Shown one piece after another: positions 371-19,119 of a DNA stretch of 64,000 nucleotides. Position numbers and translations under genes: made by a program. Numbering within the stretch: the first letter of the stretch is position 1; every line of letters begins with the position of its first letter. The stretch spans positions 32,500 through 96,499 of the IMG/VR virus record IMGVR_UViG_3300037961_005428; one strand, 5' to 3'. This DNA comes from a virus. Under the pieces are notes generated by a model, which saw nothing but the letters and a program-made list of their open reading frames with translations, ran no database searches and was not told where the DNA came from.

Positions 371-399
371 TCTAATTCCTCCGAGTGTGATTCGTTCAT
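366..399. repeat. 34-bp direct repeat, copy 1
   Basis: A 34-bp stretch, ctcattctaattcctccg on the plus strand and onward to position 399, is identical to 524-557. Read on the minus strand each copy encodes the end of one gene (MNESHSEELE then stop), a ribosome-binding site and the overlapping ATG of the next gene. The two copies bracket the 53-aa gene at 367-528. Confidence 0.9.
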
Positions 400-528: not shown

Positions 529-557
529 TCTAATTCCTCCGAGTGTGATTCGTTCAT
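524..557. repeat. 34-bp direct repeat, copy 2
   Basis: This is the second copy of the 34-bp repeat found at 366-399; the start-to-start distance is 158 bp. Recombination between the copies would remove the 53-aa gene exactly and leave intact translational coupling between its neighbours. Confidence 0.9.
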
Positions 558-728
558 GCGAATAACTGTCGCTCTGCGCTGTTTGAAATCCATTCGCAGT
601 TCAATGTAGATTTCTTCACCGCATACGGTGCACTCGTACCACAGTTGGGTAAGTCGCTCGTCTCCGGCTGCGTCGTTCAAATCCATATGGCTTCTCGCAT
701 TGTTTTCGTGTTTGCATTCTTCTGTCAT
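525..728 (-). CDS. Small zinc-ribbon-like protein (67 aa)
   Basis: The start is the ATG at 728-726 (MTEECKHENN), five codons inside a longer frame, because GGAGG lies about 8 bases upstream of it. A Cys-x-His pair near the N-terminus (residues 5-7) and a CTVCGEE knuckle near residue 38 suggest a single zinc site. The rest is strongly acidic. Proteins of this size with one zinc ribbon are common in viral early regions as nucleic-acid or protein adaptors. That role is inferred only. Confidence 0.65.
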   Translation of the reverse strand: MTEECKHENNARSHMDLNDAAGDERLTQLWYECTVCGEEIYIELRMDFKQRRATVIRMNESHSEELE

Positions 729-730
729 GT

Positions 731-6060: not shown

Positions 6061-6324
6061 ATGGCTCAGCCGATGGACATCGCTTGGATGGTGTTGAAGC
6101 AAGAAGGCTATGAGGACTATGTGGACCCTACATTAGACCAATCCTCAAGTTATTATCCCCCAATCCAACCTTCGGCACCAAGTCCGGAGCCACAGGAGTA
6201 TTTTTCTTTACCTCAAAGCCCGCAGGCCCGCCTTATGAGACTGTATTCAAAGGCACAGTCTGTTGGCTACGCTAATTTGACAGATGCAGAACGGGACGAA
6301 ATAAGAGCACTGGGTGGTATGTAA
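6061..6324 (+). CDS. Small protein with N-terminal AW-LK module (87 aa)
   Basis: It begins MAQPMDIAWMVLKQEG. Residues 4-14 (PMDIAWMVLKQ) are the clearest form of the short module shared by at least ten neighbouring genes. After it comes a Pro/Ser/Tyr-rich, probably disordered middle (QSSSYYPPIQPSAPSPEP), then a helical end (LTDAERDEIRALGGM). No enzymatic motif is visible. As first gene of the rightward accessory block it may be strongly expressed. I infer that it is a cargo or structural protein whose N-terminal helix is a sorting tag. Confidence 0.75.
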   Translation: MAQPMDIAWMVLKQEGYEDYVDPTLDQSSSYYPPIQPSAPSPEPQEYFSLPQSPQARLMRLYSKAQSVGYANLTDAERDEIRALGGM

Positions 6325-6326
6325 GC

Positions 6327-6794
6327 ATGCATTCGCTTGAACAGGCTTGGTCTGTCCTCAAGCAGTATGACCCTCAGCGGTCCCTGCATGGGCGCTCGGT
6401 CATGTTTCCACAGATGCGCTCACCTACTGTAATAGTTGAGAACCGACAAGTAGGTCGGGATGGACTCCCTTTGCATACTTTGGGTAGAAACCGCGCTTCC
6501 GGCGGCTATTCACAGATGGACCCCAAGTACAAGGGCCTCTTTACACCTTATCACGAACAAGACCTACCGGGCCCGCTTCATGAAGTGAGGTTCCAGCATC
6601 AGCGTAAAGGCCGGAACCTTACACCCGATGAGCGGCTTGTCCGAGTAACGGCTGACCGCAACCAAGCGATTGACCGGGCCAACCAGTTCCACCAAGACCG
6701 CATTGATGCCATGCAGAATTTGCCCGAGCCCGGCAGTTTTTCACGGCCTCCCAACCCGGACTTCAATCCCTTCACGATGTCCGGTGGTCAATGA
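6327..6794 (+). CDS. AW-LK module protein (155 aa)
   Basis: It begins MHSLEQAWSVLKQYD, again the shared module at residues 3-13. The middle is basic and polar, with a PKYKGLFTPYHEQDLPGP segment. A helical stretch rich in Arg, Asp and Asn follows (TADRNQAIDRANQFHQDRID), and the end is Pro/Asn-rich. Family unknown. It follows the previous gene by two bases, and its stop is embedded in the ATGATG that starts the next gene. Confidence 0.75.
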   Translation: MHSLEQAWSVLKQYDPQRSLHGRSVMFPQMRSPTVIVENRQVGRDGLPLHTLGRNRASGGYSQMDPKYKGLFTPYHEQDLPGPLHEVRFQHQRKGRNLTPDERLVRVTADRNQAIDRANQFHQDRIDAMQNLPEPGSFSRPPNPDFNPFTMSGGQ

Positions 6795-7762
6795 TGTCCC
6801 CCCTTGAAACGGCTTGGTCTATCCTCAAAGCACAAACTGAACTGGGTCAACATCACCCCGACTTCCCTTCTTCACAGGGCCCGGTGCTTGGGTACCACGG
6901 TCGCAATTTCTCAACCAAGTTCAATAACCCCTTTGGCAATTTTTACGACGCCAAGCGTGAGGTGTTTGATGACGACTTTGAGGCTATGCAAGAAGCCGTC
7001 GCCAACATCAAGGCAGCGCAACTTCTTCAAACGGGCCTTGTGCCAACTGACACGGCTGAATCGCAAGTCGGTAGTGGGCGCTTCAATCAATATGACGACA
7101 AGGGCGTACACAATTACGGAGTGGACACGAAGTTCAATCCCGACATCCCTGCCTCTATTTCGGTGGCAGTTGAGCCCCACACGGCGATTGGCTATGCAGA
7201 AGGTGCGAGAGGCTACAAGGACTCAAGCGGTCTGCCCGGCTTCTACGGGATAAGGGCTGGAGCCATGCAAAACGCTTTGCCCTTGGACGAGCCTTTGCGC
7301 CGCTACAAAATAGGTGATACGGACGATTTCATCTACAACAATCAGCGATACCGCTACATCCCGCACGGCATCGCTCCCAACCAAATGGTCCGCTTCGCTG
7401 ATGCTCAATCCATGGAAGAGTTTGATGAAGGCGTCACAAGTCCGTGGTACGGGCGTGAAAGAAAGCGTGCGCCTTCGCGCTTTATTGGAGTCGGCCCCGG
7501 TCAGTTTAGGGGTAGGGACCTTCAACTCTTGGAAGAGGGCAAAATGAATGTGGATGAGTTTAGAAGTCCCGAGCGGGACACTCAAAGGGTGATGGAGTCC
7601 GAACAATTCATTCGTGACCAAATTGCTCAGTATCAGCAACAGCAACTCGCCCAGCAGCAAGCGATGGCCCAACGGCAGGCTGACCAGCAAGCCGAGCAAG
7701 CGTTTAGGCAGCAACAAATGGCAGCGGCACCTCAACAACAACTTCCAATCGGGGTGCGGTGA
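6791..7762 (+). CDS. AW-LK module protein with possible ADP-ribosyltransferase-like core (about 322 aa)
   Basis: Two adjacent ATGs (6791 and 6794) are possible. The second gives MSPLETAWSILKAQ, matching sibling genes. After the module come a GYHGRNF segment near residue 37, a helix ending in LLQTGLVPT, then SISVAVEPHTAIGYAEG near residue 125 and GFYGIRAGAM about 25 residues later. This order, Tyr-His-Gly start, 'dP.tA..YA' strand-helix and a later beta-rich core, resembles ART/PARP-fold transferases. A catalytic Glu is not certain. The C-terminus is Gln-rich and probably coiled (QYQQQQLAQQQAMAQRQ). The enzymatic assignment is tentative. Confidence 0.7.
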   Translation: MMSPLETAWSILKAQTELGQHHPDFPSSQGPVLGYHGRNFSTKFNNPFGNFYDAKREVFDDDFEAMQEAVANIKAAQLLQTGLVPTDTAESQVGSGRFNQYDDKGVHNYGVDTKFNPDIPASISVAVEPHTAIGYAEGARGYKDSSGLPGFYGIRAGAMQNALPLDEPLRRYKIGDTDDFIYNNQRYRYIPHGIAPNQMVRFADAQSMEEFDEGVTSPWYGRERKRAPSRFIGVGPGQFRGRDLQLLEEGKMNVDEFRSPERDTQRVMESEQFIRDQIAQYQQQQLAQQQAMAQRQADQQAEQAFRQQQMAAAPQQQLPIGVR

Positions 7763-7797
7763 AGAAACTTTATCTCTTCGCCCTCACTGCGACACAC

Positions 7798-9000
7798 ATG
7801 GTCGCAGCCTTGGACGCCGCTTGGTCGCTCCTCAAGGCTTTGGATGAGCAGCAGTTGTACACACAAGCCAATCCCGGCCCTGCGGCACCAATGGGCTTCG
7901 GCGATGTCCCATATCCGCAATATGAGCAAATGCGACTCGGCACTGCCCATCCGGCGATATCGGGTTTACTTGAGCGTGTAGAGCACATGAGGGCCAACCC
8001 CTACTCCGGAACTCAAAAAGACCATCCCCAAGATGTTTACGACCCCGAAAAGCGGTTTGAAAGGTTTGGTAGACTTGGTGGAGGTTATGGGAGCCTCATT
8101 CATAGTTTTGGCAACCAGCCTTCTCTCCGTGTAGACTCGGGGCAACTGGCTAATATGATACAGGACAGTGGTATGCGCCATCACTTCGCTACTCAAACAG
8201 ACGAGGAAGCACTTAGGGAAATGCAAGACAACCGGCCAAGGCATGATTACACCCCTCTTCCGTATATACCACGAATGACGGGTAGGGCTGACCCCACAAC
8301 GGTAGAGGGTGTACCCGGTGTCAAATTCGGCCCTCCACCTATCGTTTATGACAACTTCCAAACACGGGATAGCGAGGGAAACTTGGTAACGAGATTTGGT
8401 AGCCAGCAAAAACACCCAAGGTATGATGCCCATTATGATGAGCGACAAAACCCATTAACGGGCGTCATAGATGATTTTGAATTTGGGCCAATTCAATTTC
8501 CTCAAGCGCCAATTCCGGGCGTACCGGGCGGCGCTCACCATCCCAGTCTTGACACACCTCCCGAGGTCGGTATGGTTGGACAAATAAGACCACAACACCC
8601 TTCCGCGAAAGCCTTTGGCGCACCAATCAATATCCTAAGTACATCTCGTGGTAGAAGTGGTGTTGCACAAAGTGGATTTTATCCCCCCTATAGCCAACAC
8701 CTTAGAGACATGCGAGGCCGTGGTGAAGACGATGACATCACTTCGTGGCACCTTTCCCGACAACCTTCTACGGATATTTACCAAGGACATGGTGGTGACA
8801 AAGTTGCCAACTTGCGGGGAGGTGCTGACCCCTTCCCGATGAAACAGTTGGGCCAAGAACTGGCTCAAGGCGCTCGTTCTCCCAATCGCCTAAGTAGGGC
8901 TCTAAGTAGCATTTTTAATCGCTTCCGCCGCCCTCAAGTTAATGAGCCTCAGTTTGATTTCGCCTTTGACGAACCACAGTATGATTTGAGGGGGCTGTGA
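7798..9000 (+). CDS. AW-LK module protein (400 aa)
   Basis: The frame can be read from a GTG at 7759, which would add MKKLYLFALTATH, a signal-like stretch. I prefer the ATG at 7798 because it places the shared module (MVAALDAAWSLLKALDE) at the N-terminus as in sibling genes. A second shared motif, GTAHPAISGLLERV, follows at about residue 58; related HPA motifs occur in the proteins at 9005 and 10875. The rest is Pro/Gly/His/Asp-rich and low in hydrophobic residues, so largely extended or disordered. No catalytic residues are recognised. Confidence 0.75.
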   Translation: MVAALDAAWSLLKALDEQQLYTQANPGPAAPMGFGDVPYPQYEQMRLGTAHPAISGLLERVEHMRANPYSGTQKDHPQDVYDPEKRFERFGRLGGGYGSLIHSFGNQPSLRVDSGQLANMIQDSGMRHHFATQTDEEALREMQDNRPRHDYTPLPYIPRMTGRADPTTVEGVPGVKFGPPPIVYDNFQTRDSEGNLVTRFGSQQKHPRYDAHYDERQNPLTGVIDDFEFGPIQFPQAPIPGVPGGAHHPSLDTPPEVGMVGQIRPQHPSAKAFGAPINILSTSRGRSGVAQSGFYPPYSQHLRDMRGRGEDDDITSWHLSRQPSTDIYQGHGGDKVANLRGGADPFPMKQLGQELAQGARSPNRLSRALSSIFNRFRRPQVNEPQFDFAFDEPQYDLRGL

Positions 9001-9004
9001 TAAC

Positions 9005-9634
9005 ATGAACCCAATAGACGCAGCATGGTCAATCCTCAAGGCTGACCCCAATCTCCGTATGGTGCACGGCGGCGTCTACCCCAACGCCCGTTTCGGTGGA
9101 CGGAGTCAAACCATGCACCCTGCTATCGCTGGGATGATGCAAGGTATCGGTGAGGGAAGAAGTCCCATACCGATGGAAGACATTGAGGGCGTTGATACTG
9201 GTTTTTTTGACACACACACTCCCGCTCGCTACCGAACTTGGCCCCAACCGTATAGTGAAGCACACGGCAATTTAGACAGTGGAGACCATCTGTACTCTAT
9301 GGGAAGCCTCCGGTCCATGGTCCCGGTTAGATACCAAGGCGCTCCCAAAACTCCCGACCGACTTCTTTACGAGATGTCAAAGGTTTCTCCTTACAGAATG
9401 TACGATACTGCAAACCTGCAACAAATTGATGACCCTTCTCAAAATGAAGAGTTTATGCAGGCTTTCAATGCCTATCCCGAGAAGTTGCGTCAATTCTATG
9501 AGCAACAAGGAGACATGGATGTGCACCCGCACACTGTTGCCCGAATAGCCGGTCGCCAAGATTACGGTCGTATAGGTCGCACGGGCAACCCCGACAACAT
9601 TCAAATGATACCCGACATGATGGGAGCGATGTGA
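9005..9634 (+). CDS. AW-LK module protein (209 aa), paralogue-like
   Basis: It begins MNPIDAAWSILKADPN and has MHPAIAGMMQGIGEG near residue 37, the same two-motif arrangement as its upstream neighbour. The rest is polar, with Tyr- and Met-containing loops and a helical stretch (FMQAFNAYPEKLRQFYEQQ). Its stop TGATAACATG layout (stop, TAAC, ATG) is repeated at its own start and at that of the following gene, which suggests tandem duplication of whole gene units. Function unknown. Confidence 0.75.
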   Translation: MNPIDAAWSILKADPNLRMVHGGVYPNARFGGRSQTMHPAIAGMMQGIGEGRSPIPMEDIEGVDTGFFDTHTPARYRTWPQPYSEAHGNLDSGDHLYSMGSLRSMVPVRYQGAPKTPDRLLYEMSKVSPYRMYDTANLQQIDDPSQNEEFMQAFNAYPEKLRQFYEQQGDMDVHPHTVARIAGRQDYGRIGRTGNPDNIQMIPDMMGAM

Positions 9635-9638
9635 TAAC

Positions 9639-10007
9639 ATGAGCCCAATGGATGCCGCTTGGGCGATACTCAAGGCTGACTTTTATAGCGATAAGCAACG
9701 AGCCCTTGAACAAGCCCTTGGTCCTGTGTACGGTCATGTAAGAATGGCTCGGGGCAAAGCACAAGAAGAAGCCGAGAGGATGCCGTACTCAACAGACCCC
9801 AAGGTTAGGGCAACACAAGGTCCGCTTGACTATCTGTTTGCGGGAATGGACATTGAGCCGGAGTTGATGAGGCCACCATCACCTTGGCCTAACCCTCCTA
9901 CTTACGCCGCTCCTCCGCCGGCTGACCCCGAGTTCATGGCTCGCATCAAGGCTGACGAAGAAGAGTCGCAACAGCGCAAAACCGAGCGTGAAGAACGGAA
10001 GCGTTAA
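9639..10007 (+). CDS. AW-LK module protein (122 aa)
   Basis: It begins MSPMDAAWAILKADFYS. After the module comes a helical region (KQRALEQALGPVYGHVRMARGKAQEEAERM), a Pro-rich linker (PPSPWPNPPTYAAPPPADP) and a charged C-terminal helix ending in REERKR. No enzyme motif is visible. Like its siblings it is small, soluble and modular, which fits a cargo or head-internal protein. Confidence 0.75.
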   Translation: MSPMDAAWAILKADFYSDKQRALEQALGPVYGHVRMARGKAQEEAERMPYSTDPKVRATQGPLDYLFAGMDIEPELMRPPSPWPNPPTYAAPPPADPEFMARIKADEEESQQRKTEREERKR

Positions 10008-10035
10008 GTAGGGGATGCCCAACATAGGGCACTAA

Positions 10036-10116
10036 GGGAGAGGCGGTACCCTCCAGTCGTGTGTTCTTTTGGGCTCTGAATCACTTCTCGCATTTCTTCA
10101 TTCCGCCGCCTCTCCC
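10036..10116 (+). promoter_or_regulatory. Inverted repeat in a 126-base gap, hairpin or terminator-like
   Basis: GGGAGAGGCGG 10036-10046 pairs perfectly with CCGCCTCTCCC 10106-10116, with a 59-base loop. A small TGCCC-aacata-GGGCA hairpin lies just before it near 10015-10029. No U-run follows directly, so an intrinsic terminator is not clear. It separates the first run of module genes from the zinc-ribbon and basic genes that follow, and may set expression level or RNA stability. Confidence 0.45.
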
Positions 10117-10133
10117 CCCTTTCGGTGAAAAGT

Positions 10134-10268
10134 ATGCCACGGCGCAAAAGTCCTGCTTGCCCTTATTGTCAGCAACAACCTACTCAGCGACTGTACTCCA
10201 AAGCCGGCGGTACTTTGCACGGCGTGGCTTGGCACTGCCCCGTGTGCGAGTGCATGTGGAAACTTTGA
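10134..10268 (+). CDS. Zinc-ribbon micro-protein (44 aa)
   Basis: The frame reads MPRRKSPACPYCQQQPTQR and ends WHCPVCECMWKL. Two CxxC knuckles about 25 residues apart make a classic zinc ribbon. The N-terminus is basic. GGTGAAAAGT precedes the ATG as a weak ribosome-binding site. Nucleic-acid binding is likely for this fold, but the target is unknown. Confidence 0.65.
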   Translation: MPRRKSPACPYCQQQPTQRLYSKAGGTLHGVAWHCPVCECMWKL

Positions 10269-10279
10269 TGTAGCCACCC

Positions 10280-10687
10280 ATGCTGTCACGCCACATGGCG
10301 GATGCTATAGAGTGGTTGACCGACGAGGAAATCATCGGAAAGACCGACTGGTCCGATGTGGCGTTTTGCGATTGTTGCTCGCCACTTGAGATTTCTATGG
10401 CCGTTGTCAAGGCGAAGCGAAAGTCCAAGCCTTTTCACGGCTACAATCCAAACAAGCACGCCAAGACCGGTGGGCTGAACGCCAAGGGTCGGGCGGCTGC
10501 GAAGCGCAAGACTGGGGCCAATCTCAAGCGCCCCGTCACCAAGAAGCCCAGCAAACTCAAGCGAGGTAGCAAAGCCTCCAAGCGACGCAAGTCATTTTGT
10601 GCCCGCATGTCGGGTGTCAAAGGTCCGACCAGCAAGAAAGGTAAACTCACTCCCAAGGGAGCCGCTTTGAAGAGGTGGAACTGTTGA
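10280..10687 (+). CDS. Basic conserved phage protein (135 aa), DUF6321-like
   Basis: The C-terminal two-thirds carry GGLNAKGRAAAKRKTGANL and RRKSFCARMSGVKGP, ending in ALKRWNC. I recognise these as signature blocks of a small basic family common in marine phages, probably the one annotated DUF6321; the accession is from memory and not checked. Its function is not established. The N-terminal 40 residues are unlike the family core and include CDCCSP. The very high Lys/Arg content suggests DNA binding, perhaps on packaged DNA. Confidence 0.75.
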   Translation: MLSRHMADAIEWLTDEEIIGKTDWSDVAFCDCCSPLEISMAVVKAKRKSKPFHGYNPNKHAKTGGLNAKGRAAAKRKTGANLKRPVTKKPSKLKRGSKASKRRKSFCARMSGVKGPTSKKGKLTPKGAALKRWNC

Positions 10688-10713
10688 ACTGTGACTGTGA
10701 GCATTGCTTTGGT

Positions 10714-10878
10714 ATGCAGACGGCTTGGGACCTTCTTGAGAAGAAATTGTGCCCGGCTGGTAAAGCGGCGGCGAAGCGGAAGTTCAAGGTGTACCCATCG
10801 GCTTACGCTAACGGATGGGCCGTACAATACTGCAAGGGCAAGTTCCGTGGCAAAAAGAAAGGGGGCAAAAAGAAATGA
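10714..10878 (+). CDS. Basic conserved phage protein with AW-LK-like start (54 aa)
   Basis: A GTG at 10675 would add 13 residues, but the ATG at 10714 gives MQTAWDLLEKKLC, which fits the local N-terminal module. The core CPAGKAAAKRKFKVYPSAY and GWAVQYCKGKFRGKKKG is a short basic block I recognise from marine phage genomes, often next to the family encoded just upstream. The C-terminus is nearly all Lys and Gly. Its stop overlaps the next ATG as ATGA. DNA binding is plausible. Confidence 0.65.
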   Translation: MQTAWDLLEKKLCPAGKAAAKRKFKVYPSAYANGWAVQYCKGKFRGKKKGGKKK

Positions 10879-11423
10879 ATCCAATGGACGCAGCGTGGAA
10901 TGTGCTAAAGGCACTACCAAGTCGTGAAGTGGTGCAGAACAGATACCGTTTTACTGGACAAGGGCACCCATTTTTGGATGAAAAAGGTAATCCCACCCCC
11001 GAAACCAAAAGAGATTTGGTTGAGCAAATGGGGATTGGAACAAGGCACCCTGCTTTGAATCCAGCGCATGTCATTGAAAGCGTGAGTGGCAGACCCACCA
11101 ATATCACAGAAGGTTCACACCTTAGCCCAATAGAGCCCACTGACATTTTGCGCTATCCTACGGGCGACAGCATAACCGGTGCTGAAACTGGCAGAGCGGA
11201 GTTGGAAAACACGCGTCAACGACGAATTAACGAAAGAAGTCAACGCCGTTTGACGGGAAATACATCCCCTCCAAGGCTCATTGACCATCATCGTTACACA
11301 CATTTGCCCCCCGGCAACTACTATGGTGGCAACCTTCCAAAAAATAGCGCACTCAGCGACGAAGAAATGGAAAACTTGCGTCAACAAGCGCAACAGATGC
11401 CCTTTTCGTATGAAGGTCAATGA
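10875..11423 (+). CDS. AW-LK module protein (182 aa)
   Basis: The start MNPMDAAWNVLKALPS at 10875 (ATGA overlap) is chosen over an upstream in-frame ATG because it puts the module at the N-terminus. GTRHPALNPAHVIESV near residue 55 is the second motif shared with the proteins at 7798 and 9005. The rest is polar and Arg-rich (TRQRRINERSQRRLTG) with no catalytic signature. It is probably a distant paralogue of those two. Confidence 0.75.
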   Translation: MNPMDAAWNVLKALPSREVVQNRYRFTGQGHPFLDEKGNPTPETKRDLVEQMGIGTRHPALNPAHVIESVSGRPTNITEGSHLSPIEPTDILRYPTGDSITGAETGRAELENTRQRRINERSQRRLTGNTSPPRLIDHHRYTHLPPGNYYGGNLPKNSALSDEEMENLRQQAQQMPFSYEGQ

Positions 11424-11432
11424 GGGATAAAA

Positions 11433-11639
11433 ATGCACGCTCTTGAACATGCTTGGCGCATCATCAAGGGCAAAGAGGATGCTCCAAATTATCGCAAAGC
11501 CACGGGGCCAAAGAAGTGCGGCAACTGCAAGGCTTGGGATTCTTCAAAAACTGACGACCCTATGACGGGGTATTGTGAGTGGTACGATTTTACTTGTCGT
11601 GCCGACCATGTGTGTGATGCTTGGGCGGGGAAGAAATGA
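11433..11639 (+). CDS. AW-LK module fused to a cysteine-rich small domain (68 aa)
   Basis: The module MHALEHAWRIIKGKED is followed by KKCGNCKAWDSS, GYCEWYDFTC and HVCDAW, five cysteines in a compact order (CxxC, C, C, C) seen in small zinc- or Fe-S-binding phage proteins. It is a clear example of the tag being attached to a separate, independently folding domain. Its stop overlaps the next ATG as ATGA. Confidence 0.75.
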   Translation: MHALEHAWRIIKGKEDAPNYRKATGPKKCGNCKAWDSSKTDDPMTGYCEWYDFTCRADHVCDAWAGKK

Positions 11640-12220
11640 GTGAACAGTGCCCTTGTTGCAGCGTGATGGTTGTCAAAGACCTTAACCGCTGGTTCAAGGA
11701 GAAGTGGGTGGATGTGTCTCGCAAAGACAAGGACGGCAAGCACCCACCTTGCGGGCGCAAGAAGGCCAAGAAGGGGAGCAAAGGTTACCCTAAGTGCCGG
11801 CCGTCAGTCAAGGTGTCAAGCAAGACGCCGAAGACCTCCGGTTCTATGACTGAGGGGCAGAAGCGTGCGGCGACCAAGCGTAAGCGGTCCAAGAAGCAAG
11901 GAGTTGGCGGAAAACCGACGATTGTCAAATCACTGGTGCTCAAGCGACCTGTCAGTCCCGAGGCCAAGCGTCACAAGTTGGAATACGACACCAAGTACGA
12001 GTCTACGCCCGAGCGTGTCAAGTATCGGGAAGAACTTAAGCGTGAACGCCGACATAGAGGTATTGACGGTAAAGGGGGTCCGGACATGAGTCACACGAAA
12101 GACCACACCCTTGTCGCCGAAGACCCTCACACCAACAGAGCCCGCCACTTCAAAGAGCGAGGCACACTCAAGGGCGACCCTATGGACATCGCTTGGCTCC
12201 TTGTCAAAGGTGAGTGGTGA
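11636..12220 (+). CDS. Basic DUF5872-like protein with C-terminal AW-LK module (194 aa)
   Basis: The ATG at 11636 overlaps the upstream stop. The N-terminus has CPCC, then WFKEKWVDVSRKDKDGK and GYPKCRP, then an MTEGQKRAATKRKRSKK block. This order matches a basic family known from phages and large viruses, which I believe is DUF5872 (unchecked). A second basic segment (EYDTKYESTPERVKYREEL, then SHTKDHTLV) follows. The last 13 residues, PMDIAWLLVKGEW, are the shared module, here at the C-terminus instead of the N-terminus. This shows that it is a movable tag. Confidence 0.75.
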   Translation: MSEQCPCCSVMVVKDLNRWFKEKWVDVSRKDKDGKHPPCGRKKAKKGSKGYPKCRPSVKVSSKTPKTSGSMTEGQKRAATKRKRSKKQGVGGKPTIVKSLVLKRPVSPEAKRHKLEYDTKYESTPERVKYREELKRERRHRGIDGKGGPDMSHTKDHTLVAEDPHTNRARHFKERGTLKGDPMDIAWLLVKGEW

Positions 12221-12465
12221 TGACCGAATACCCCTTTGACAGTTGGGGCTTTCAGTTCGTGCTCACGCTGGACGACCACCTGCAAATCATGCAGGACTTA
12301 CTTGACCACTACGCTGACATCATTGACATGCTGGAGGACGCCTGCGACAACAACGATGCGTTGCTCGCCGACCTCGTGGACGCTCAAGAGCAATACATGA
12401 TTTTGCGACAGGCTTATGAAAAAATGAAACATGGGGGTAATTGGTTGCATGCTGAGTCCAACTGA
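12220..12465 (+). CDS. Small acidic helical protein (81 aa)
   Basis: The ATG at 12220 overlaps the upstream stop (TGATG) and gives MTEYPFDSWGFQFVL. From residue 20 on the chain is a long acidic helix with regular hydrophobics (DDHLQIMQDLLDHYADIIDMLEDAC, read in two pieces), a probable coiled coil. It lacks the AW-LK module. It may be a partner or chaperone. Function unknown. Confidence 0.65.
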   Translation: MTEYPFDSWGFQFVLTLDDHLQIMQDLLDHYADIIDMLEDACDNNDALLADLVDAQEQYMILRQAYEKMKHGGNWLHAESN

Positions 12466-13573
12466 CGCCGCTTGGTCTGTCCTTGAAGAAGGGCACCGTG
12501 TGGACAAGGCCCTTCCGTTCCTCATTCCGGCGGCGATGTTAGCCTATGGCGGCTATCAAGGTGCGAAAAATGTCAAGGAAAATCGTATCACTGACCCCTT
12601 TTTAGGGGTGGTCGGTACCGAAGGCAATGATTCACTCGGTAGTAACCTTGCCGAGTTTGGGACAGGTTTTGCACAGGGCGTTGTCCCCGTCAAGGGTGGA
12701 GGCTTTTTGGCCCGGAAGTTTGGTGGCCGCCGTGCAGCAAAGCGTGCAGCAGCACGAGAAGCCGCAGAAAAGGAGGCGGCTGAGGCTGCGGCCCGCCATC
12801 AAGCGTTGTCTGCTCAACAGCGAAGGGGTGTGCTACAGCGGGAGAATCCCGAAGTTGGCTATGTGTTTGGTGAAGTAGCCCCTTATGTTTCTCCTTCCCA
12901 ACTTGGTGCTGTTCGCCAAACGATGAACGCTGCCCAAGCACGGGCTGCCCGGCTGGCTCCGAGAGCACAAGCACCAGTCGCTCCGTTGACACTGGGTCAG
13001 CGTGCAAAGTTGGTTGCAGCCACAGGCGCTGGTGCAGCCACTGCTTATGCTCCCGAAATTATGATGGCACTTGGGCTCGCTGGGAGTCCGCCCACCAGTA
13101 CAGAATTTGGAGGATTTGGTGCAACAGGCACAGGCGGTTTCGGCGCAGGGCAGGGTGGTCAACAGGGCTTCCAACTCGCAGGTCAACAGTCCGGCGGCGT
13201 TGGTGGTGTGCAAAATGTCGGTGTGAGCGGTATGGCTGACCACGACATTTTCCAAGGCAAGCAATTCCAGTCGGCTCCGACATCATCAAATATGCAAGCC
13301 CCTTCCATCAAACAGAAGGGGACCCCTATGTCGCTCGGAAACAATCTCATCAACTCCACCTTGAGTGTAATGGAACGCAACATTATGAAAGCCAGTGTGT
13401 GTGAACGCTGTGGCAAGAAAGGCTGCGTCAACAAAATGCACTGCATGGCGAAAGCCGATGATGGCAAAAAGAAAAAGCCAGCCCACGGCATGGTCATTGT
13501 CATTGGCTCCAAAGCCGGCCCGGGCCCGTCAACGAACGGCAAGCGGGACGACAAAAAGGACGACAAAGAGTGA
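12449..13573 (+). CDS. AW-LK module protein with Gly-rich middle and C-terminal zinc motif (374 aa)
   Basis: The ATG at 12449 gives MLSPTDAAWSVLEEGHR, the module with its Lys changed to Glu. A hydrophobic stretch (LPFLIPAAMLAYGGYQG) follows. An Ala/Arg/Glu-rich helix lies near residues 95-125, then Ala- and Gly-rich segments (GFGATGTGGFGAGQGG). Near residue 310 comes VCERCGKKGCVNKMHC, a zinc knuckle, followed by a Lys-rich tail. A membrane-active or structural role is possible given the hydrophobic, Ala- and Gly-rich make-up. No enzyme motif is visible. Confidence 0.75.
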   Translation: MLSPTDAAWSVLEEGHRVDKALPFLIPAAMLAYGGYQGAKNVKENRITDPFLGVVGTEGNDSLGSNLAEFGTGFAQGVVPVKGGGFLARKFGGRRAAKRAAAREAAEKEAAEAAARHQALSAQQRRGVLQRENPEVGYVFGEVAPYVSPSQLGAVRQTMNAAQARAARLAPRAQAPVAPLTLGQRAKLVAATGAGAATAYAPEIMMALGLAGSPPTSTEFGGFGATGTGGFGAGQGGQQGFQLAGQQSGGVGGVQNVGVSGMADHDIFQGKQFQSAPTSSNMQAPSIKQKGTPMSLGNNLINSTLSVMERNIMKASVCERCGKKGCVNKMHCMAKADDGKKKKPAHGMVIVIGSKAGPGPSTNGKRDDKKDDKE

Positions 13574-13665: not shown

Positions 13666-14202
13666 ATGTCAAGCGGTAGCCAAAGCGTTGACCAAAGTGA
13701 AATTCGGCTCATGGGGCTTATCCTCATGCAGTCGCTAAATGTAGGACTTGCCATCGGTGTATTCAACGCCGGCATTTGGATTGATTTAGAGAGCACGATG
13801 CTGAATGCATTTACTTATGCGATGGGTGCGTTTTTCGTCCAAGGCATAGCGTATTACTTCTTCAAAATGTTCTTCCAACAGGGCATGGACGACAAGGCTC
13901 GCCAGTCCGAGATGGAGCGAGAGCGGCGCAACCGCTACCGGGCTATGGAGATGACTTTTGAGCGCCGCCGTCAAGACATGGAACTTCGCATGCAAGAGGC
14001 ACAACTTGAACAAGAGTTGCGCTGGATGGAAAACAACCCCGGAAAAATGCCACCGATGAGCCTTTCTGACCCTATTTCGCTTGACACTGGCAACTTTAAT
14101 CCCGAAAAGGGCGATAAGACCCTTTCATTGGGTGTCTCCTTTGACGAGGAGAAGCCACTCACCAATCGTGGGGCTGATGGCAAGTTCAAGAAGAAGGAGT
14201 GA
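13666..14202 (+). CDS. Membrane protein with coiled-coil tail (178 aa)
   Basis: Two hydrophobic segments, about residues 15-35 (LMGLILMQSLNVGLAIGVF) and 45-67 (AFTYAMGAFFVQGIAYYFF), should span the membrane. They are followed by a long charged helix (QSEMERERRNRYRAMEMTFE onward) that predicts a coiled coil to about residue 125, then a polar tail ending in KFKKKE. It may anchor an assembly at the membrane. The next genes encode another membrane protein and a GTPase, so the three may act together; this is inference from gene order. Confidence 0.75.
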   Translation: MSSGSQSVDQSEIRLMGLILMQSLNVGLAIGVFNAGIWIDLESTMLNAFTYAMGAFFVQGIAYYFFKMFFQQGMDDKARQSEMERERRNRYRAMEMTFERRRQDMELRMQEAQLEQELRWMENNPGKMPPMSLSDPISLDTGNFNPEKGDKTLSLGVSFDEEKPLTNRGADGKFKKKE

Positions 14203-14207
14203 GGCCT

Positions 14208-14444
14208 GTGGGCTGGCTGTTCAAAACGCCAAGTGATGATGCAACGGAGTCAACGCTTCGTGCTATTCACATGGCGAACACTTTGGACACCGCTTATGAG
14301 CGCACATGGGGCTGGGTTAAAACGGTCATTTTCTCGTTTATCAGCGCCCTGTCTATCAGTGCCTTTGAGTATCACAACGATTGGAGTTTTTGGGAGCATA
14401 CTGTTAACTGGCTTGCCAACGAGGTTATGGGTTGGTTTGAATGA
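14208..14444 (+). CDS. Small membrane protein (78 aa)
   Basis: I chose the GTG at 14208 because GGAG ends eight bases upstream; an upstream GTG at 14199 and an ATG at 14271 are alternatives. The chain has one probable membrane segment (WVKTVIFSFISALSISAF) followed by a Trp-rich amphipathic end (WSFWEHTVNWLANEVMGWF). Residues before it (ANTLDTAYERTWGWVK) are a faint echo of the AW-LK module. Its stop overlaps the GTPase ATG as ATGA, so the two are co-translated. Confidence 0.6.
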   Translation: MGWLFKTPSDDATESTLRAIHMANTLDTAYERTWGWVKTVIFSFISALSISAFEYHNDWSFWEHTVNWLANEVMGWFE

Positions 14445-15157
14445 GTGCAGCAGCGGGCTCTGCCATGGTGGGTGGCGTTATTTTTGCCAAGGAACTTTAC
14501 CATTATTGGGTTCCCCGCAGGGTCGGTGTGTATGGTCCACCGCTGGCTGGAAAGACAACGCTGGACAAATACTTGACCACGCCCGGTGAAATGGAAGACA
14601 TTCCTCTTGACAAGCGCACAACTCACACAAAGGTGCTTGGAAAATTCCTTCTTCCCCGTGCCAGTCGTAAGCGTGTGAAGTACAAGGGTGAAACTCGTGT
14701 GATTCATTCCGCAGATATGGGCGGCGAACAGCGGTTTTGGAACCTGTGGGTGGACGATATGGTCAATCGGGGCGTAGAAGCAGTGGTGTTCATGTTTGAT
14801 GACCGTGCAAATGCAGGTGGAGATACCACCGTTGACGCTGTTGGCGGCTTCAAATTCTTGGTGGACGCTCTCATTTACCGTCAATATCGCTATAGAAACC
14901 TACGAAGTTGGTTGAAAGGCAAGAAGTACACGCCCAAAGTCATTCTTTTGGTTGCTAACAAAGCCGATAAGTGGTGGGATGAGCAGGCAAATACGCTGTG
15001 GCAGCAGCAGCGTCTTGGAGAACATCGCATTTTTGACCCGTTTCGGGAAGACCTTATTCGTCTACAAAAGGCCGGTATACCTACACGAAGGGGTATGATG
15101 GCCACCCGAATTGGCTGGAATGTGGAAAATACGATGGTGGATTTGCTGTCAACATGA
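14441..15157 (+). CDS. Ras/Arf-superfamily small GTPase (238 aa)
   Basis: All core GTP-binding motifs are visible: P-loop GPPLAGKTT at residues 32-40, switch II DMGGEQRF at 92-99, and guanine-specificity NKAD at 173-176. The DxGGExRF form is like Arf/SRbeta-type GTPases. An N-terminal hydrophobic stretch (AAAGSAMVGGVIFA) may touch the membrane. The region between switch II and NKAD is about 80 residues, longer than in Ras, with an inserted basic segment (YRQYRYRNLRSWLKGKK). It sits between two membrane-protein genes and a zinc protein. Role unknown: membrane remodelling or assembly control are possibilities. Confidence 0.85.
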   Translation: MSAAAGSAMVGGVIFAKELYHYWVPRRVGVYGPPLAGKTTLDKYLTTPGEMEDIPLDKRTTHTKVLGKFLLPRASRKRVKYKGETRVIHSADMGGEQRFWNLWVDDMVNRGVEAVVFMFDDRANAGGDTTVDAVGGFKFLVDALIYRQYRYRNLRSWLKGKKYTPKVILLVANKADKWWDEQANTLWQQQRLGEHRIFDPFREDLIRLQKAGIPTRRGMMATRIGWNVENTMVDLLST

Positions 15158-15168
15158 GGTGAACGAAC

Positions 15169-16152
15169 ATGAATGGATTACGACGCTACGGGCAGGTCCC
15201 GCAACAGGGAAATGGCAACTTATACGCTCTTGACGCTAATCAAATGGCGGCTTTGTCGCAACAAGGGAGCCTTTCGCACGAACAATTGATTGAAATGCAA
15301 GGTGCGCAGCAAGGAATGCGAGAAGCGGCTGCAAAAAGCAACATTGAGGTGCCAAAAGTCAATTTTTACCCCAGTCGGCACCCCGATTCACGAAAAGCAC
15401 GCAAAAAAGACATCAAACAGGCCCGAAAACTGCTCAAACCGAGCAAAAGAAGCATTTTCAACCCCTTACGGTGGGTTGGAATGAAGTATCGGTACAACAA
15501 ATTGCATGAAAGGTGCGTTGTGGACGGCTGTGACTGCGTTGAACTCATCAAATACGACAATTTGTATGCTAAAATCTGTGATGAGGACACTGGAGAGAGC
15601 CTTTGGGACCTTTATTGGACAAATCCGGTCACAGGAGAGGTTCAAGCCTTCGTAGCGGCTGAAAATGTCACTGATGGGCGCAAAATGAGGGGTACATACT
15701 GCCCCGAACACCTTCATTTGTACCATTTATTGTGTAAATGGGAGGATGAGAACGACAAAGTGCGCCTTAACAGCAAATCCGGTATGCGAGAAATGGTCAA
15801 AAAGGGCGTTTCTACGGTCGCTGTACCCATTTCAATGGTCAAAAAGAAGGACAATACACCCCAATTTTTGGCCAAATATGAGCCTTTTTTCAAGCAATTA
15901 GAGCAGGATTCACGCCAAACAAGCGGTATTTCCATCCTTCATTACCAAAATCCGGTATCAAAAATGAATGATGTGACCATGATTGTGTTTGATTTGCGCA
16001 TTTTTCAGCAGGAATTAGGTCAAATTGACCAACAAAACCCGCCCAGCATCCTTGATGCAGTGGGTAAAATGGGTATTACCCTCCCCGATTCCCCACCTCT
16101 CCAACAGGTTGAAGAAGAGAATGGCCCTCAGTTTGGCCAAGGGCAGGCTTGA
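15169..16152 (+). CDS. Hypothetical protein with zinc-binding cysteines (327 aa)
   Basis: It starts MNGLRRYGQVPQQGNG behind GAGGTGAACGAAC. A Gln-rich N-terminus and a strongly basic helical part (KARKKDIKQARKLLKPSKR) lead to a CVVDGCDC knuckle near residue 117 and a TYCPEHLHLYH segment near residue 178, together a likely zinc site. The C-terminal third is alpha/beta-like and ends in a Gln/Glu-rich tail. It may be a DNA- or protein-binding component of the GTPase cluster. No known family. Confidence 0.7.
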   Translation: MNGLRRYGQVPQQGNGNLYALDANQMAALSQQGSLSHEQLIEMQGAQQGMREAAAKSNIEVPKVNFYPSRHPDSRKARKKDIKQARKLLKPSKRSIFNPLRWVGMKYRYNKLHERCVVDGCDCVELIKYDNLYAKICDEDTGESLWDLYWTNPVTGEVQAFVAAENVTDGRKMRGTYCPEHLHLYHLLCKWEDENDKVRLNSKSGMREMVKKGVSTVAVPISMVKKKDNTPQFLAKYEPFFKQLEQDSRQTSGISILHYQNPVSKMNDVTMIVFDLRIFQQELGQIDQQNPPSILDAVGKMGITLPDSPPLQQVEEENGPQFGQGQA

Positions 16153-16166
16153 AAGCAGGTGAAAAC

Positions 16167-16796
16167 ATGTTATTCGGAAACAATCAACAGCAAAGCGGTG
16201 CACTGAACCTTGGTGCGCCAGCCAATACTCCACAACAGCCCTTCCAATTCGGTCAGCAGCCGCCCAGTGCCATGCAAAACTTTGGCCAAAGTGCGTTTGG
16301 TGGCAGTATGATGCAGGGTATGGGTATGAATCCGGGCATGATGCAGCAACCCGTGGCCCCGCCCAGTGAAACTGAAATTCAATTGGCACTCATGCGCTCT
16401 GTCGCACCTATGGACAGATTCGTGGCATCAGCCCAAATGGCCACGCTTGTGCAGATGCTGAACGACCTTGTTAGTTTCTCAGTGCTGGAAGTGATGAAAA
16501 ACGCCACTTTTGTCATCAACGAGGACGATGGTACCATGAAATTGGATGTTACTTCACTGCCTTCCAACCTTCAAACCATGAGTGCGGAGAATGTCACCAA
16601 TCAATTTAACCAACTTCAAAGCACCAGTCAGCAAAACATCCAGCAAATGGAGATGCAGCAGCAACAAATCCTTGCTATGGCTCAGCAATCGCTGATGGGT
16701 GGGGCACTTGCAGCGGCTATGGCTGACGAAGGTATGATGCAAAAGGTGGGTGGCGGAGTTGGCTCCTTCGCTCGTAGTATGTTGGGAGGACGATGA
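16167..16796 (+). CDS. Gln/Met-rich helical protein (209 aa)
   Basis: The ATG at 16167 (MLFGNNQQQSGALN) follows AGCAGGTGAAAAC; an in-frame TTG upstream is less likely. Residues 1-60 are Gln/Gly/Met-rich and disordered. The middle contains helices (LMRSVAPMDRFVASAQMATL) and a beta pair. The end is again Gln-rich, with GGALAAAMADEGMMQKVGGG. Low-complexity ends around a folded core are typical of structural or assembly proteins. Function unknown. Confidence 0.7.
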   Translation: MLFGNNQQQSGALNLGAPANTPQQPFQFGQQPPSAMQNFGQSAFGGSMMQGMGMNPGMMQQPVAPPSETEIQLALMRSVAPMDRFVASAQMATLVQMLNDLVSFSVLEVMKNATFVINEDDGTMKLDVTSLPSNLQTMSAENVTNQFNQLQSTSQQNIQQMEMQQQQILAMAQQSLMGGALAAAMADEGMMQKVGGGVGSFARSMLGGR

Positions 16797-16797
16797 T

Positions 16798-17049
16798 ATG
16801 GTAGATAGTGGTATACCGGGATTTTACTATGGCTTTGCCATGTCAACACGCGACATTTTTGCCCCAAAGAAGAGCGTCATTGTAGATATGGTGATGGTAC
16901 AGGTTTTGACCATCATCGTCACCCTTTCACTGGTGTTGTTGACGGGCTCGGGTAAGTTGTCTTCGGACACAATGGCTTACATGATGGGAGCCATGATGGG
17001 TGCGATTTTGCTTGCTACGGGGATTTACACCCGTATTTCACAACAATAG
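16798..17049 (+). CDS. Small membrane protein (83 aa)
   Basis: The ATG at 16798 (MVDSGIPGFYYGFAM) comes after GGGAGGACGATGAT. Two hydrophobic segments are visible, IVDMVMVQVLTIIVTLSLVL and YMMGAMMGAILLATGIY, giving a hairpin membrane protein. Size and topology recall holins, but no other lysis gene is recognised nearby, so that is only one option. It is convergent with the following minus-strand gene, with no bases between the two stops. Confidence 0.7.
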   Translation: MVDSGIPGFYYGFAMSTRDIFAPKKSVIVDMVMVQVLTIIVTLSLVLLTGSGKLSSDTMAYMMGAMMGAILLATGIYTRISQQ

Positions 17050-17301
17050 TCACCACTTGTCTTGTGGACAGGTGGATGATTTGAGCGAGGCTTTTGCTCG
17101 CATGAAGCATCCACAGTCTTTGCACCGTGTACCTGTCCAACTTGGGCACTCTTGACAGATAGCGAGTCTGCGACTCCGCTCTTCGGGACTTACTTTTCGT
17201 CGCAAAGCCACATCTCTTGCGGCCTTTGATAGCGAAACAGCCGTCTCCTTTGTCATCGGGATTCCGGCGACTTTGACATCCATTTTGGGCAGTCTTGGCA
17301 C
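17050..17301 (-). CDS. Lone minus-strand zinc-ribbon protein (83 aa)
   Basis: This is a single gene against the surrounding direction. A GTG at 17301 has GAGG eight bases upstream; an ATG at 17283 is the alternative. The C-terminal half reads RLAICQECPSW, then CKDCGCFMRAKASLKSSTCP, ending DKW: a three-knuckle zinc ribbon of a type I recognise from many phages (a CxxC, CxxCGC, C-P arrangement). The N-terminal part is a basic helix. Family function is not established. Its isolation and orientation suggest a separately regulated or transferred cassette. Confidence 0.75.
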   Translation of the reverse strand: MPRLPKMDVKVAGIPMTKETAVSLSKAARDVALRRKVSPEERSRRLAICQECPSWTGTRCKDCGCFMRAKASLKSSTCPQDKW

Positions 17302-17359
17302 AGTGTTTCCTCGCTGTTCTTTCCTAAAGGCTTATCGTTGGGCGTAGCATGGACCACGC

Positions 17360-18070
17360 ATGGGAGGTCGGCAGACCAAGCGTTCTTGCCCTTTTTGCCA
17401 AGACCCCGACCGTGACAAACTTGAGATGAGCATTGCTCAAGGCATCGCTGATGTTCGCACCATGGACCGCGATAAAGGCTGGCGGGCCAACACGGCAGAA
17501 CGCCACATGAGAAACCACGCTGGTGAAAATTTAGAAGGTTCCAACTATCGCTGCGTGATATGCACGGACGACCACCGAAGCATGTACGAAGTCGCTTATT
17601 TTGACGAGGGCATGACCACCGAAGAGATTGCCCAAGAGTTGAATTGCAGTGAGGCTACAGTCTACAAGCACATGAAAGAGCACTTCCAGCCCATCGTCAA
17701 GCAAAGTGCATCGGCTATTGTGTCCATTAAGGTGGGTCAAGAGGCTGATATCCTGCGACACAACACTGAGCGCCTCAATGAAAAGTTGTCTCGCTACATG
17801 GACGAGGTCAGCATCCACGATGACGGGGCTGTTTCGGACATGGTTAAGTTGAGCAAAGAGATTCGTGAGTCCATCAAGGACTTGACTTCGTTCCAAAAGG
17901 CGTGGGTTGAACCCGAGGAGAAAATGGTCGCAAACACCATCAACATCCTCAAAGTTGAAATGGCGAAAGAAAGTCCCGATACTTGGAAGCGTGTCAAAGA
18001 AGCCTTGCTCACACAGGAAGGCGACGAAATTGACATCAGCGGCATGTTAGAGCAGGAGGATAGCGCATGA
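17360..18070 (+). CDS. Candidate terminase small subunit (236 aa)
   Basis: N-terminal CPFCQDPDRD and a CVICTDDH segment near residue 65 could bind zinc. Residues 84-108 (MTTEEIAQELNCSEATVYKH) form a clear helix-turn-helix, followed by a long helical region with a probable coiled coil (HNTERLNEKLSRYMDEV) to the acidic end. DNA-binding HTH plus oligomerising helix plus position upstream of the large terminase fits a small terminase that selects viral DNA for packaging. Three genes lie between them, so the assignment is probable and not certain. Its stop overlaps the next ATG. Confidence 0.65.
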   Translation: MGGRQTKRSCPFCQDPDRDKLEMSIAQGIADVRTMDRDKGWRANTAERHMRNHAGENLEGSNYRCVICTDDHRSMYEVAYFDEGMTTEEIAQELNCSEATVYKHMKEHFQPIVKQSASAIVSIKVGQEADILRHNTERLNEKLSRYMDEVSIHDDGAVSDMVKLSKEIRESIKDLTSFQKAWVEPEEKMVANTINILKVEMAKESPDTWKRVKEALLTQEGDEIDISGMLEQEDSA

Positions 18071-19119
18071 CCAGTAGCATGGGTACCGGCACTGACACCC
18101 GCATGTACTCCCCTCGGTCCGAATCGGACCACCTGTACTCGGACGGTGAAGACTACCGACACGGTAAGGGCTCGCCCGAACACGAGGACGAGATGAAAGA
18201 CAAGAAAATGAAGGAGAAGGAGGAGCGTGTCAAGACCCGTGAACTCCCCCATCTCAAGTTCAACATTGAATCGGCCGAGCAGGACATGGGTATGCCTGCT
18301 CCTATGCCGATGGACGAGCCACAAGAGGACATGATGGAAGAAACGCCCATGGCTCAGCAGGGTGAACTTAGCGCTCTTACCGGTTCTCCGGGCACCGGCT
18401 CACCCGAAGCCAGCATTAGTTTTGGTGCACAGGCGCTCAGCCCGTATGGTCAGCAGACCATCATGGCCAGCGAGCCGATGGACATCGCTTTCCAACTGCT
18501 CAAGCGAGATGGCGACTTCTCCACTCAGCCGTTCAAGGCTCCCCCCGGTGGCCGCTCTCGTCAAAAACAAGCAACATCCATGCGTGCTAAGCGACAGGCT
18601 CGCACACTCAGCCCTCGCACGGAAAAGGGTGGCATGGTTAATGCTGATAAAGCCGTTGAGATGTCTCACCTTGGCATTGATACCAAGCAACCCCTGCGTT
18701 TGTTCCCCGACAAATACCGTCAAAGCCTTGGTACTCGGGCCATGCAGGCCAATCGTGGTAACATTGCGCTCCCCTATCAAGGGCACAACATTGAGCGCCG
18801 CACTCCTTTCAAGCCCATGACCATGAAGTCCGAACTTCAAGAAGTGCAAATGCTTCTCAAGTCGGCTTCGGGCTACCTTCACCTCAGTCAATTGCGCAAC
18901 ATTCTGCGAGACTTGAAGCGAGCCATCGCTCGCAAGGAGTCAGCCAAGAAAGCGCCGCCGTCCGGCAAAGGCACTTCCAAAGAAGGCGAGGCTGGGCACC
19001 GTGATGGTGAAACCACTCAGCCCCAAGGGCGCACTGACAATGTAGAGGCTGATGAGTTCCGTTCTGCCGGTGCCTCCGGTCACCAGTTTGTGAGCAGGGG
19101 TAGCGGGAGGACGGCTTGA
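18067..19119 (+). CDS. Disordered charged protein with internal AW-LK-like module (350 aa)
   Basis: The N-terminal 60 residues are extremely charged (EHEDEMKDKKMKEKEERVK). Met/Pro-rich segments follow. At about residues 137-148 lies PMDIAFQLLKRD, the shared module with Trp replaced by Phe, inside the chain. The last third has a helical stretch (ELQEVQMLLKSASGYLHLSQ) and a polar, Lys/Gly-rich tail. No enzyme motif. It probably belongs to the head or packaging set because it lies between the small and large terminase genes. Confidence 0.7.
   Translation: MTSSMGTGTDTRMYSPRSESDHLYSDGEDYRHGKGSPEHEDEMKDKKMKEKEERVKTRELPHLKFNIESAEQDMGMPAPMPMDEPQEDMMEETPMAQQGELSALTGSPGTGSPEASISFGAQALSPYGQQTIMASEPMDIAFQLLKRDGDFSTQPFKAPPGGRSRQKQATSMRAKRQARTLSPRTEKGGMVNADKAVEMSHLGIDTKQPLRLFPDKYRQSLGTRAMQANRGNIALPYQGHNIERRTPFKPMTMKSELQEVQMLLKSASGYLHLSQLRNILRDLKRAIARKESAKKAPPSGKGTSKEGEAGHRDGETTQPQGRTDNVEADEFRSAGASGHQFVSRGSGRTA

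Follow-up and report, generated by a model that had tools for sequence, protein, structure and literature searches.

Magroviruses, abundant viruses of uncultured ocean archaea, mark dozens of otherwise unrelated late proteins, among them an alarmone hydrolase, a Nudix hydrolase and a DNA methyltransferase, with one 10-residue tag that is predicted to be helical. The tag most likely loads these proteins into the virus particle as cargo for delivery into the next host. It was examined in a 64-kb window (IMG/VR record IMGVR_UViG_3300037961_005428, positions 32,500 to 96,499) of a 96.5-kb magrovirus record. The window carries portal, capsid, protease and terminase genes of the magrovirus type together with a replication module transcribed in the opposite direction, a layout matching that described previously (PMC12999244, PMC10768690), and its portal relates to that of the Druskaviridae; no direct comparison with a type genome was made.

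The original prediction listed 13 peptides in the window as copies of a short tag on proteins whose remaining parts differ, and this observation was confirmed for 12 of them, which were found in frame at or near the stated places and conform to one motif, Met-x(1,2)-[P/A]-[F/M/L/I]-[D/E/N]-x-A-W-x-[L/V/I]-L-K. The thirteenth, DTLHRTWNLMK (19188), is present as a string but scored below 8 bits and was not counted as the tag. A degenerate copy that had been missed, PLEISMAVVK, precedes the DUF6321 domain of one protein. The tag sites and the relevant structural genes, with profile scores in bits for the tags and with L numbers denoting related loci, are as follows.

6070..6099 (+), N-terminal tag PMDIAWMVLK, gene 6061-6324, 29.9 bits
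6333..6362 (+), N-terminal tag SLEQAWSVLK, gene 6327-6794, 25.7 bits
6800..6829 (+), N-terminal tag PLETAWSILK, gene 6791-7762, ADP-ribosyltransferase-like body with homologs (A4), 28.1 bits
7807..7836 (+), N-terminal tag ALDAAWSLLK, gene with likely start 7798 and end 9000, 28.5 bits
9011..9040 (+), N-terminal tag PIDAAWSILK, gene 9005-9634, 29.7 bits
9645..9674 (+), N-terminal tag PMDAAWAILK, gene 9639-10007, 29.9 bits
10382..10411 (+), degenerate tag PLEISMAVVK in front of a DUF6321 domain (4.6e-15), gene 10280-10687; intact tags occupy the equivalent position in relatives (L082 'SPSELAWAVIKAKKKSKP', L088 'ADAFEVAWDILKAKKKSKP', and L089)
10711..10740 (+), variant tag GMQTAWDLLE(K), near the N-terminus of a DUF5872-like protein (weak match, 0.0098), 10675-10878, 8.9 bits; relatives of the body carry the full motif (L129 'MTAFDNAWDYLEKKLCPKGK', L141 'SPFEFAWDFLEKKLCPAGK')
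10881..10910 (+), N-terminal tag PMDAAWNVLK, gene with likely start 10875 and end 11423, 28.1 bits
11439..11468 (+), N-terminal tag ALEHAWRIIK, Cys-rich protein 11433-11639, 23.0 bits
12179..12208 (+), C-terminal tag PMDIAWLLVK followed by GEW-stop, gene 11621-12220, 25.9 bits
12458..12487 (+), N-terminal tag PTDAAWSVLE, gene 12431-13573, 17.9 bits; the tag is present in many of its relatives
13666..18070 (+), untagged block between the cargo array and the head genes, with small hydrophobic proteins, a P-loop GTPase (14441-15157), genes at 15169, 16149 and 16750, and an HTH protein at 17360; inferred to hold candidate loader or receptor genes
18475..18504 (+), internal tag variant PMDIAFQLLK at residue 137 of 350, gene 18067-19119, 19.1 bits; an AW-type tag lies at residue ~140 in relatives and at residue 144 in clade B (L298:6582-8414)
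22246..23748 (+), terminase large subunit (TerL), untagged (phrog_38, 4.6e-61)
25101..26849 (+), portal, untagged (phrog_18178, 2.8e-70; 28% to the HVTV-1 portal)
33897..35294 (+), prohead protease S78 with a long C-terminal extension, untagged (Peptidase_S78, 3.7e-10)
35313..36485 (+), major capsid protein, untagged (SU10_MCP, 3.8e-11; phrog_24667, 4.3e-54)

A tag-like stretch in the prohead protease (34407, NPEATFRILK) was read as the normal end of an S78 protease domain and was not scored as a tag.

To assess whether the motif could have arisen by chance, the DNA pattern GANNNNGCNTGGNNNNTNNTNAAR was searched in 18 magrovirus records, giving 112 hits, 111 of them on the TerL strand, and 0 for the reversed control pattern. 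A motif profile, as had been suggested beforehand, was then used to scan 160 related IMG/VR stretches; at ≥11 bits, 594 hits were identified on the late strand, 20 on the opposite strand and 0 in reversed ORFs. As the loci overlap, these counts are redundant, but the contrast between them is not. Chance is excluded by these results. In this genome the replication genes are untagged, and the only tagged gene in that region is an isolated late-strand ORF. The tag occurs in two deeply split magrovirus groups, with portals 66-69% and 45-51% identical to that of the window, and in both the array lies just upstream of the head genes. No hit above 8 bits was identified in the whole genome of the halovirus HVTV-1, although its portal, protease and capsid are related, and a druskavirus ancestry of the tag was rejected on this result. 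The N-terminal DNA pattern had 0 matches in 257 Gb of cellular genomes, where we estimate that about 2 would be expected by chance, and thus no cellular counterpart was found; a terminase search gave no host or provirus contig to anchor a closer host search. A published magrovirus study that was examined names no motif, N-terminal signal or tag.

In 179 N-terminal cases the tag is fixed at Met+2 or +3, most often at residue 3, whereas 24 proteins carry it at the C-terminus and others between domains, with three or more copies in some long proteins. The bodies behind the tag fall into about 100 clusters that share no similarity once the tag is masked. That the motif might be part of one longer conserved domain had been named in advance as the condition that would defeat the tag reading, and this was not borne out; 120 and 116 tagged proteins aligned only over the tag, with conservation ending one or two residues after the Lys. 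All synonymous codons are used, with free choice at A, L, K, D and P, which rules out a DNA-level element and indicates selection at the amino acid level. The tag has a helical moment of 0.526, compared with 0.325 for shuffled sequences, and AlphaFold2 models predicted a helix at the tag, spanning residues 4-18 in the 6791-7762 protein. These features describe a capped amphipathic helix of about 10 residues (S/T/N cap, P/A, F/M, D/E, x, A, W, x, L/V/I, L, K), of which MSPFDQAWSLLKA is an example.

Most of the tagged bodies have no known function, but several enzymes could be recognized. In L304, an alarmone hydrolase (HD_4, over its cutoff; PDB (p)ppApp hydrolase, 4.6e-12) matches from residue 15, just behind the tag. 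A Nudix domain (4.2e-22) lies between two tags in L113:667-1227, and a C5 DNA methylase (3.6e-13), GNAT, ParB-like, kinase-like and DUF5872 bodies and zinc ribbons were also identified. The window body 6791-7759 resembles ADP-ribosyltransferases; the Foldseek top hits are of this class at E values of 0.09 to 1, and a profile search matched KptA with an E value of 0.22. This assignment is coherent but weak, and the kinase assignments are likewise weak individually. The A5 family ('LYxGG...YALYGS') has a tag helix but gave no fold match, and S-AdoMet lyase matches in long multi-tag proteins were below the cutoff.

Taken together, the motif appears to be a transplantable sorting tag of magroviruses that loads late effectors into the prohead, a reading to which we assign a probability of about 0.62. 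The analysis itself establishes that this is a single motif under amino acid-level selection, carried by unrelated bodies, confined to the late strand with rare exceptions, present in two deep virus clades and absent from the replication genes of this genome. The destination, by contrast, is inferred from gene position, strand and cargo type. In this view, the hydrophobic face of the helix (F/M, A, W, L) would dock on a groove of a prohead component (core, protease-scaffold, capsid or portal) or of a virus-encoded loader, so that the attached enzymes are enclosed in the virion and delivered with the DNA into the next host cell, where they would modify host proteins, nucleotides or DNA. No receptor was identified, and no virion proteome of any magrovirus, binding data or structure bears on this; entry of a foreign protein into the head was not measured, although natural fusions to many bodies suggest transplantability. 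That HVTV-1, with related portal, protease and capsid, does without the tag also counts against this reading. The original interpretation, a docking or sorting peptide working at either end of different folds and closest to the T4 capsid-targeting sequence, was therefore partly supported: the movable tag is strongly supported and head sorting is the most likely use, and the T4 analogy holds for the role and for the kind of cargo, but cleavage by the prohead protease is not supported. The motifs [LI]xE, [AGS]xE and [LIVA]xE are hardly commoner in residues 1-20 behind the tag than further in (39/193 versus 30/193 for [LI]xE), although the specificity of the magrovirus protease is unknown and another site cannot be excluded. 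The tag probably stays on the cargo.

Other uses of the tag are less likely. The genes at 14441, 15169, 16149 and 17360 were found in both magrovirus clades and not in HVTV-1; they include the GTPase, which has weak Arf-like matches, a 327-aa partner and the HTH protein, and the ORFs between them have hydrophobic stretches. The hydrophobic proteins and the GTPase may be membrane-anchored, and the tag could dock late proteins on such a virus-encoded platform for secretion, surface display or work at the membrane, and not for packaging in the head. This appears unlikely, as the tag is too short and too charged for a classical signal peptide and occurs at C-termini and internally, and several bodies act on nucleotides or DNA (alarmones, Nudix, methylase), which suits the cytoplasm of a newly infected cell. 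Slightly less likely again, the tag could bind one host protein or a late virus hub, with the tagged proteins acting as adaptors or effectors in the same infection and never being packaged. Short helical motifs with a Trp and Leu face are common in protein docking, and late genes could still act on the host before lysis, but the tags are restricted to the late strand beside the head genes, and enzymes that would be most useful at entry are made late.

Co-assembly of the tagged proteins with each other, as helix bundles or a condensate forming an internal core that is only passively enclosed, is improbable. The amphipathic helix and its repeats inside long proteins are compatible with this, and microcompartment peptides form trimeric bundles and condense cargo (PMC12339742), but a near-invariant A-W with exact spacing suggests one specific partner; self-association was not examined. 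Ordinary homology or a DNA-level recombination or start signal is very unlikely. Arrays of adjacent short genes with alike starts could arise by duplication, and some bodies (GNAT, ADP-ribosyltransferase-like) are paralogous, but the extent of conservation, codon use, tag placement and unrelated bodies described above are against it.

Magroviruses are among the commonest ocean viruses of archaea, none is cultured and most of their genes have no known function. One short tag now sorts hundreds of these genes into a single functional class, probably virion cargo, from sequence alone. It predicts which proteins enter the host with the DNA, gives a handle for finding counter-defense enzymes against archaeal immunity, and would be, to our knowledge, the first sequence-defined cargo-sorting tag for archaeal tailed viruses. 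It may also serve as a transplantable encapsulation tag. A more far-reaching possibility, which we consider doubtful, is an open plug-in system in which any late protein that gains the helix at either end is enclosed and injected, such that each virus carries its own changing set of a dozen or more counter-defense and takeover enzymes (alarmone hydrolase, ADP-ribosyltransferases, kinases, methylase, Nudix, GNAT). Loading would then be done by a receptor or loader that these viruses share and druskaviruses lack, possibly the GTPase block beside the array.

The closest known systems are the T4 capsid-targeting sequence (IPI-III, Alt) and the N-terminal packaging signal of P1 DarB. As in these, a short N-terminal peptide is found on otherwise unrelated proteins of a tailed virus, with host-directed enzymes among the cargo; T4 Alt is an ADP-ribosyltransferase, and the first 30 residues of P1 DarB carry mCherry into the capsid (PMC9024508). 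However, T4 propeptides are cut off by the prohead protease (PMC5694885), while no cleavage signature follows the magrovirus tag, which also occurs at C-termini and internally, is far more uniform and is found on up to 14 genes in a row. P1 Dar proteins show no shared N-terminal sequence (PMC9024508). Bacterial microcompartment encapsulation peptides (PMC12339742) and encapsulin cargo-loading peptides similarly bring unrelated enzymes into a protein shell by a terminal amphipathic helix or short peptide; encapsulins have an HK97-fold shell. The magrovirus tag shares the terminal amphipathic helix on unrelated enzymes, with binding to the inner face of a shell protein not assayed here, but those peptides serve cellular compartments and metabolic enzymes and differ in sequence and length (about 18 residues), whereas here a virus has very diverse cargo. 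N-terminal loading signals of extracellular contractile injection systems and of polymorphic toxins also place one shared module in front of swappable effector domains, ADP-ribosyltransferases included, but those modules are longer and serve tail-like or secretion machines, while this one is 10 residues and in a DNA virus.

The window, bases 32500 to 96499 of a 96,499-base IMG/VR virus record, carries a terminase (phrog_38; E value, 4.6e-61), a portal (phrog_18178; E value, 2.8e-70), an S78 prohead protease, and an SU10-like HK97-type capsid protein. The nearest named relatives of the portal were found in the haloarchaeal Druskaviridae (HVTV-1, 28%). Replication genes on the opposite strand lie to the left of the window. 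Genome size, the two opposed modules, and the kinship to Druskaviridae are those given for magroviruses (order Magrovirales), viruses of Poseidoniales archaea (PMC12999244, PMC10768690); the named reference genomes were not compared, and this assignment therefore rests on layout and homology. Features of the window other than the individual tags are as follows.

367-743, minus strand, and likewise L163/L164 (related loci): many early-strand proteins begin with MNM and end in EE(E), probably because the ribosome-binding site and start of the next gene overlap the stop; two neighbors share the ending RMNESHSEELE.
6061-13573: nearly every gene is tagged.
10280-10687: gene with a DUF6321 basic domain, which also occurs at the end of larger phage proteins (phrog_10346, 727, 3477) and, in related locus L262 (8488-9264), fused to an untagged ADP-ribosyltransferase-like body; it may be a second packaging or DNA-binding module.
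14441-15157, with 13666, 14199, and 16750: a P-loop GTPase (weak Arf-like matches) with an apparently hydrophobic N terminus, amid small hydrophobic proteins, an unusual arrangement for a tailed virus.
23803-25119: gene between TerL and portal with an AGFFDADGSI stretch, like a LAGLIDADG homing endonuclease, in its C-terminal half.
28053-33884: 1943-amino-acid head-region protein with a stretch that by eye resembles the adenylation domain of ATP-dependent DNA ligases, syntenic with the HVTV-1 "zeta toxin" gene 115.

The original prediction listed thirteen peptides as copies of one short movable tag, and this observation held for twelve of them; the thirteenth, DTLHRTWNLMK, is not a copy of the motif. 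A degenerate copy that had been missed (PLEISMAVVK, 10382 to 10411) stands in front of the DUF6321 domain, where relatives have intact copies. To assess whether the motif exceeds chance, 160 related IMG/VR stretches were retrieved by the terminase and by the 15169 protein, and not by the motif itself. A first regular expression identified 344 hits on the late strand, 15 on the other strand, and 39 for the reversed motif. A profile built from 141 nonredundant sites gave, at ≥11 bits, 594 late-strand hits, 20 opposite-strand hits, and none in reversed frames, although the loci overlap and absolute counts are redundant. In 18 long records, a DNA pattern for D/E-x-A-W-x-h-h-K had 112 hits, 111 of which were on the TerL strand as judged from the orientations of the retrieved loci, while the reversed control pattern had none.

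The information in the motif sits in ten residues, [P/A]-[F/M/L/I]-[D/E/N]-x-A-W-x-[L/V/I]-L-K, usually after Met and one or two residues. The distance from Met to the P/A is 2 in 125 and 3 in 54 N-terminal cases. S/T/N before the P/A and D/E two places on is the classical helix cap with capping box. The mean helical hydrophobic moment was 0.526, compared with 0.325 for shuffles (standard deviation, 0.005), and AlphaFold predicted helices at residues 3 to 11 of a clade-B protein and 4 to 18 of the window protein 6791-7759 (mean pLDDT, 71 and 67, respectively). Internal and C-terminal copies prefer [S/G]-E-P-M-D-x-A-W-R-L-L-K. All four Ala codons and all six Leu codons are used, so selection is on the protein.

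Masked bodies of 381 tagged frames fell into 100 clusters with no mutual similarity. It had been stated in advance that a tag would be ruled out if the motif belonged to one longer conserved domain; MAFFT alignments of 120 and 116 tagged proteins instead showed a consensus over the tag and nearly nothing after it. Twenty-four distinct C-terminal tags were identified within 12 residues of the stop, and one Nudix hydrolase (E value, 4.2e-22; domain at residues 17 to 141) has a tag at both ends: MGVFEQAWTILK...GEPMTKAWEFLKGPLVFYN-stop. The ADP-ribosyltransferase-like family of the window's 6791 gene has the tag in most members, an eroded one in loci L196 and L171, and none in L262, L252, and L162, where the body is instead fused to the DUF6321 domain. 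GNAT bodies occur both as small tagged proteins and as a domain of long proteins with internal tags.

Recognizable tagged bodies include an alarmone hydrolase in locus L304 (HD_4; E value, 5.1e-7, over cutoff; PDB (p)ppApp hydrolase; E value, 4.6e-12), Nudix, a C5 DNA methylase with a somewhat stretched tag in locus L269 (E value, 3.6e-13), GNAT, a ParB-like domain (phrog_2579; E value, 2.4e-35), zinc ribbons, DUF5872, and DUF6321. Other assignments are weaker. Foldseek hits 1 to 16 of the window model are ADP-ribosyltransferases, but none is significant alone (best E value, 0.09); the KptA profile gave an E value of 0.22, and the HGT signature is repeated in clade B. An isolated late-strand tagged gene inside the replication module (record G000, 15817 to 16620, locus L163; also L307 and L308), in the same setting in several genomes, is kinase-like by eye (Gly-rich loop, VVKV, and a DLKPQN loop), although the G000 and L307 genes had no Pfam match. 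S-AdoMet-lyase-like bodies were below cutoff, and HExxH proteins were also found. Terminase, portal, protease, capsid, and tail proteins are untagged.

A DNA pattern for the N-terminal form identified at least 119 IMG/VR stretches and none in 257 Gb of cellular genomes, where about two are expected by chance. Of 30 records found in this way, 26 encode the magrovirus portal, in two groups sharing 66 to 69% and 45 to 51% identity with that of the window. The second group has a very uniform M-T-A-F-D-T-A-W-x-L-L-K-M/A-P and up to 14 tagged genes in a row. In both groups, the array lies just upstream of a conserved block (small hydrophobic proteins, a GTPase, and the 15169 and 17360 proteins), followed by TerL, portal, protease, and capsid. 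HVTV-1 has neither the tag nor homologs of that block.

The analysis itself establishes one transplantable helical tag under amino acid-level selection, on the late strand, on unrelated bodies and at both ends. What the tag does is inferred: the F/M-A-W-L face could dock on one partner, most simply a prohead component or a loader encoded in the neighboring block, so that the bodies would be enclosed and delivered with the DNA. The interpretation in the original prediction, a docking or sorting peptide with the T4 capsid-targeting sequence as the closest idea, is partly supported. The cargo supports enclosure and delivery with the DNA, as enzymes against alarmones, nucleotides, DNA, and host proteins are of little use at the end of infection but of great use at its start, as with T4 Alt and P1 Dar proteins. 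Cleavage by the prohead protease, part of the T4 comparison, was examined, but no cleavage signature follows the tag, which probably stays on. Overall, we place the capsid-cargo reading at a probability of about 0.62. Docking on a membrane platform appears unlikely, as does, slightly more so, a docking peptide acting in the same infection; self-assembly of the tagged proteins is less likely still, and ordinary homology or a DNA element is very improbable.

The one full magrovirus study examined mentions no motif, N-terminal signal, or tag, a limited reading on which the novelty of the tag is judged. As cleavage is a defining feature of T4-type sequences and was not found, the tag is not classed with them. 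In role, it is nearest to the T4 capsid-targeting sequence and the P1 DarB signal (PMC5694885, PMC9024508), and in form, to microcompartment encapsulation peptides (PMC12339742).
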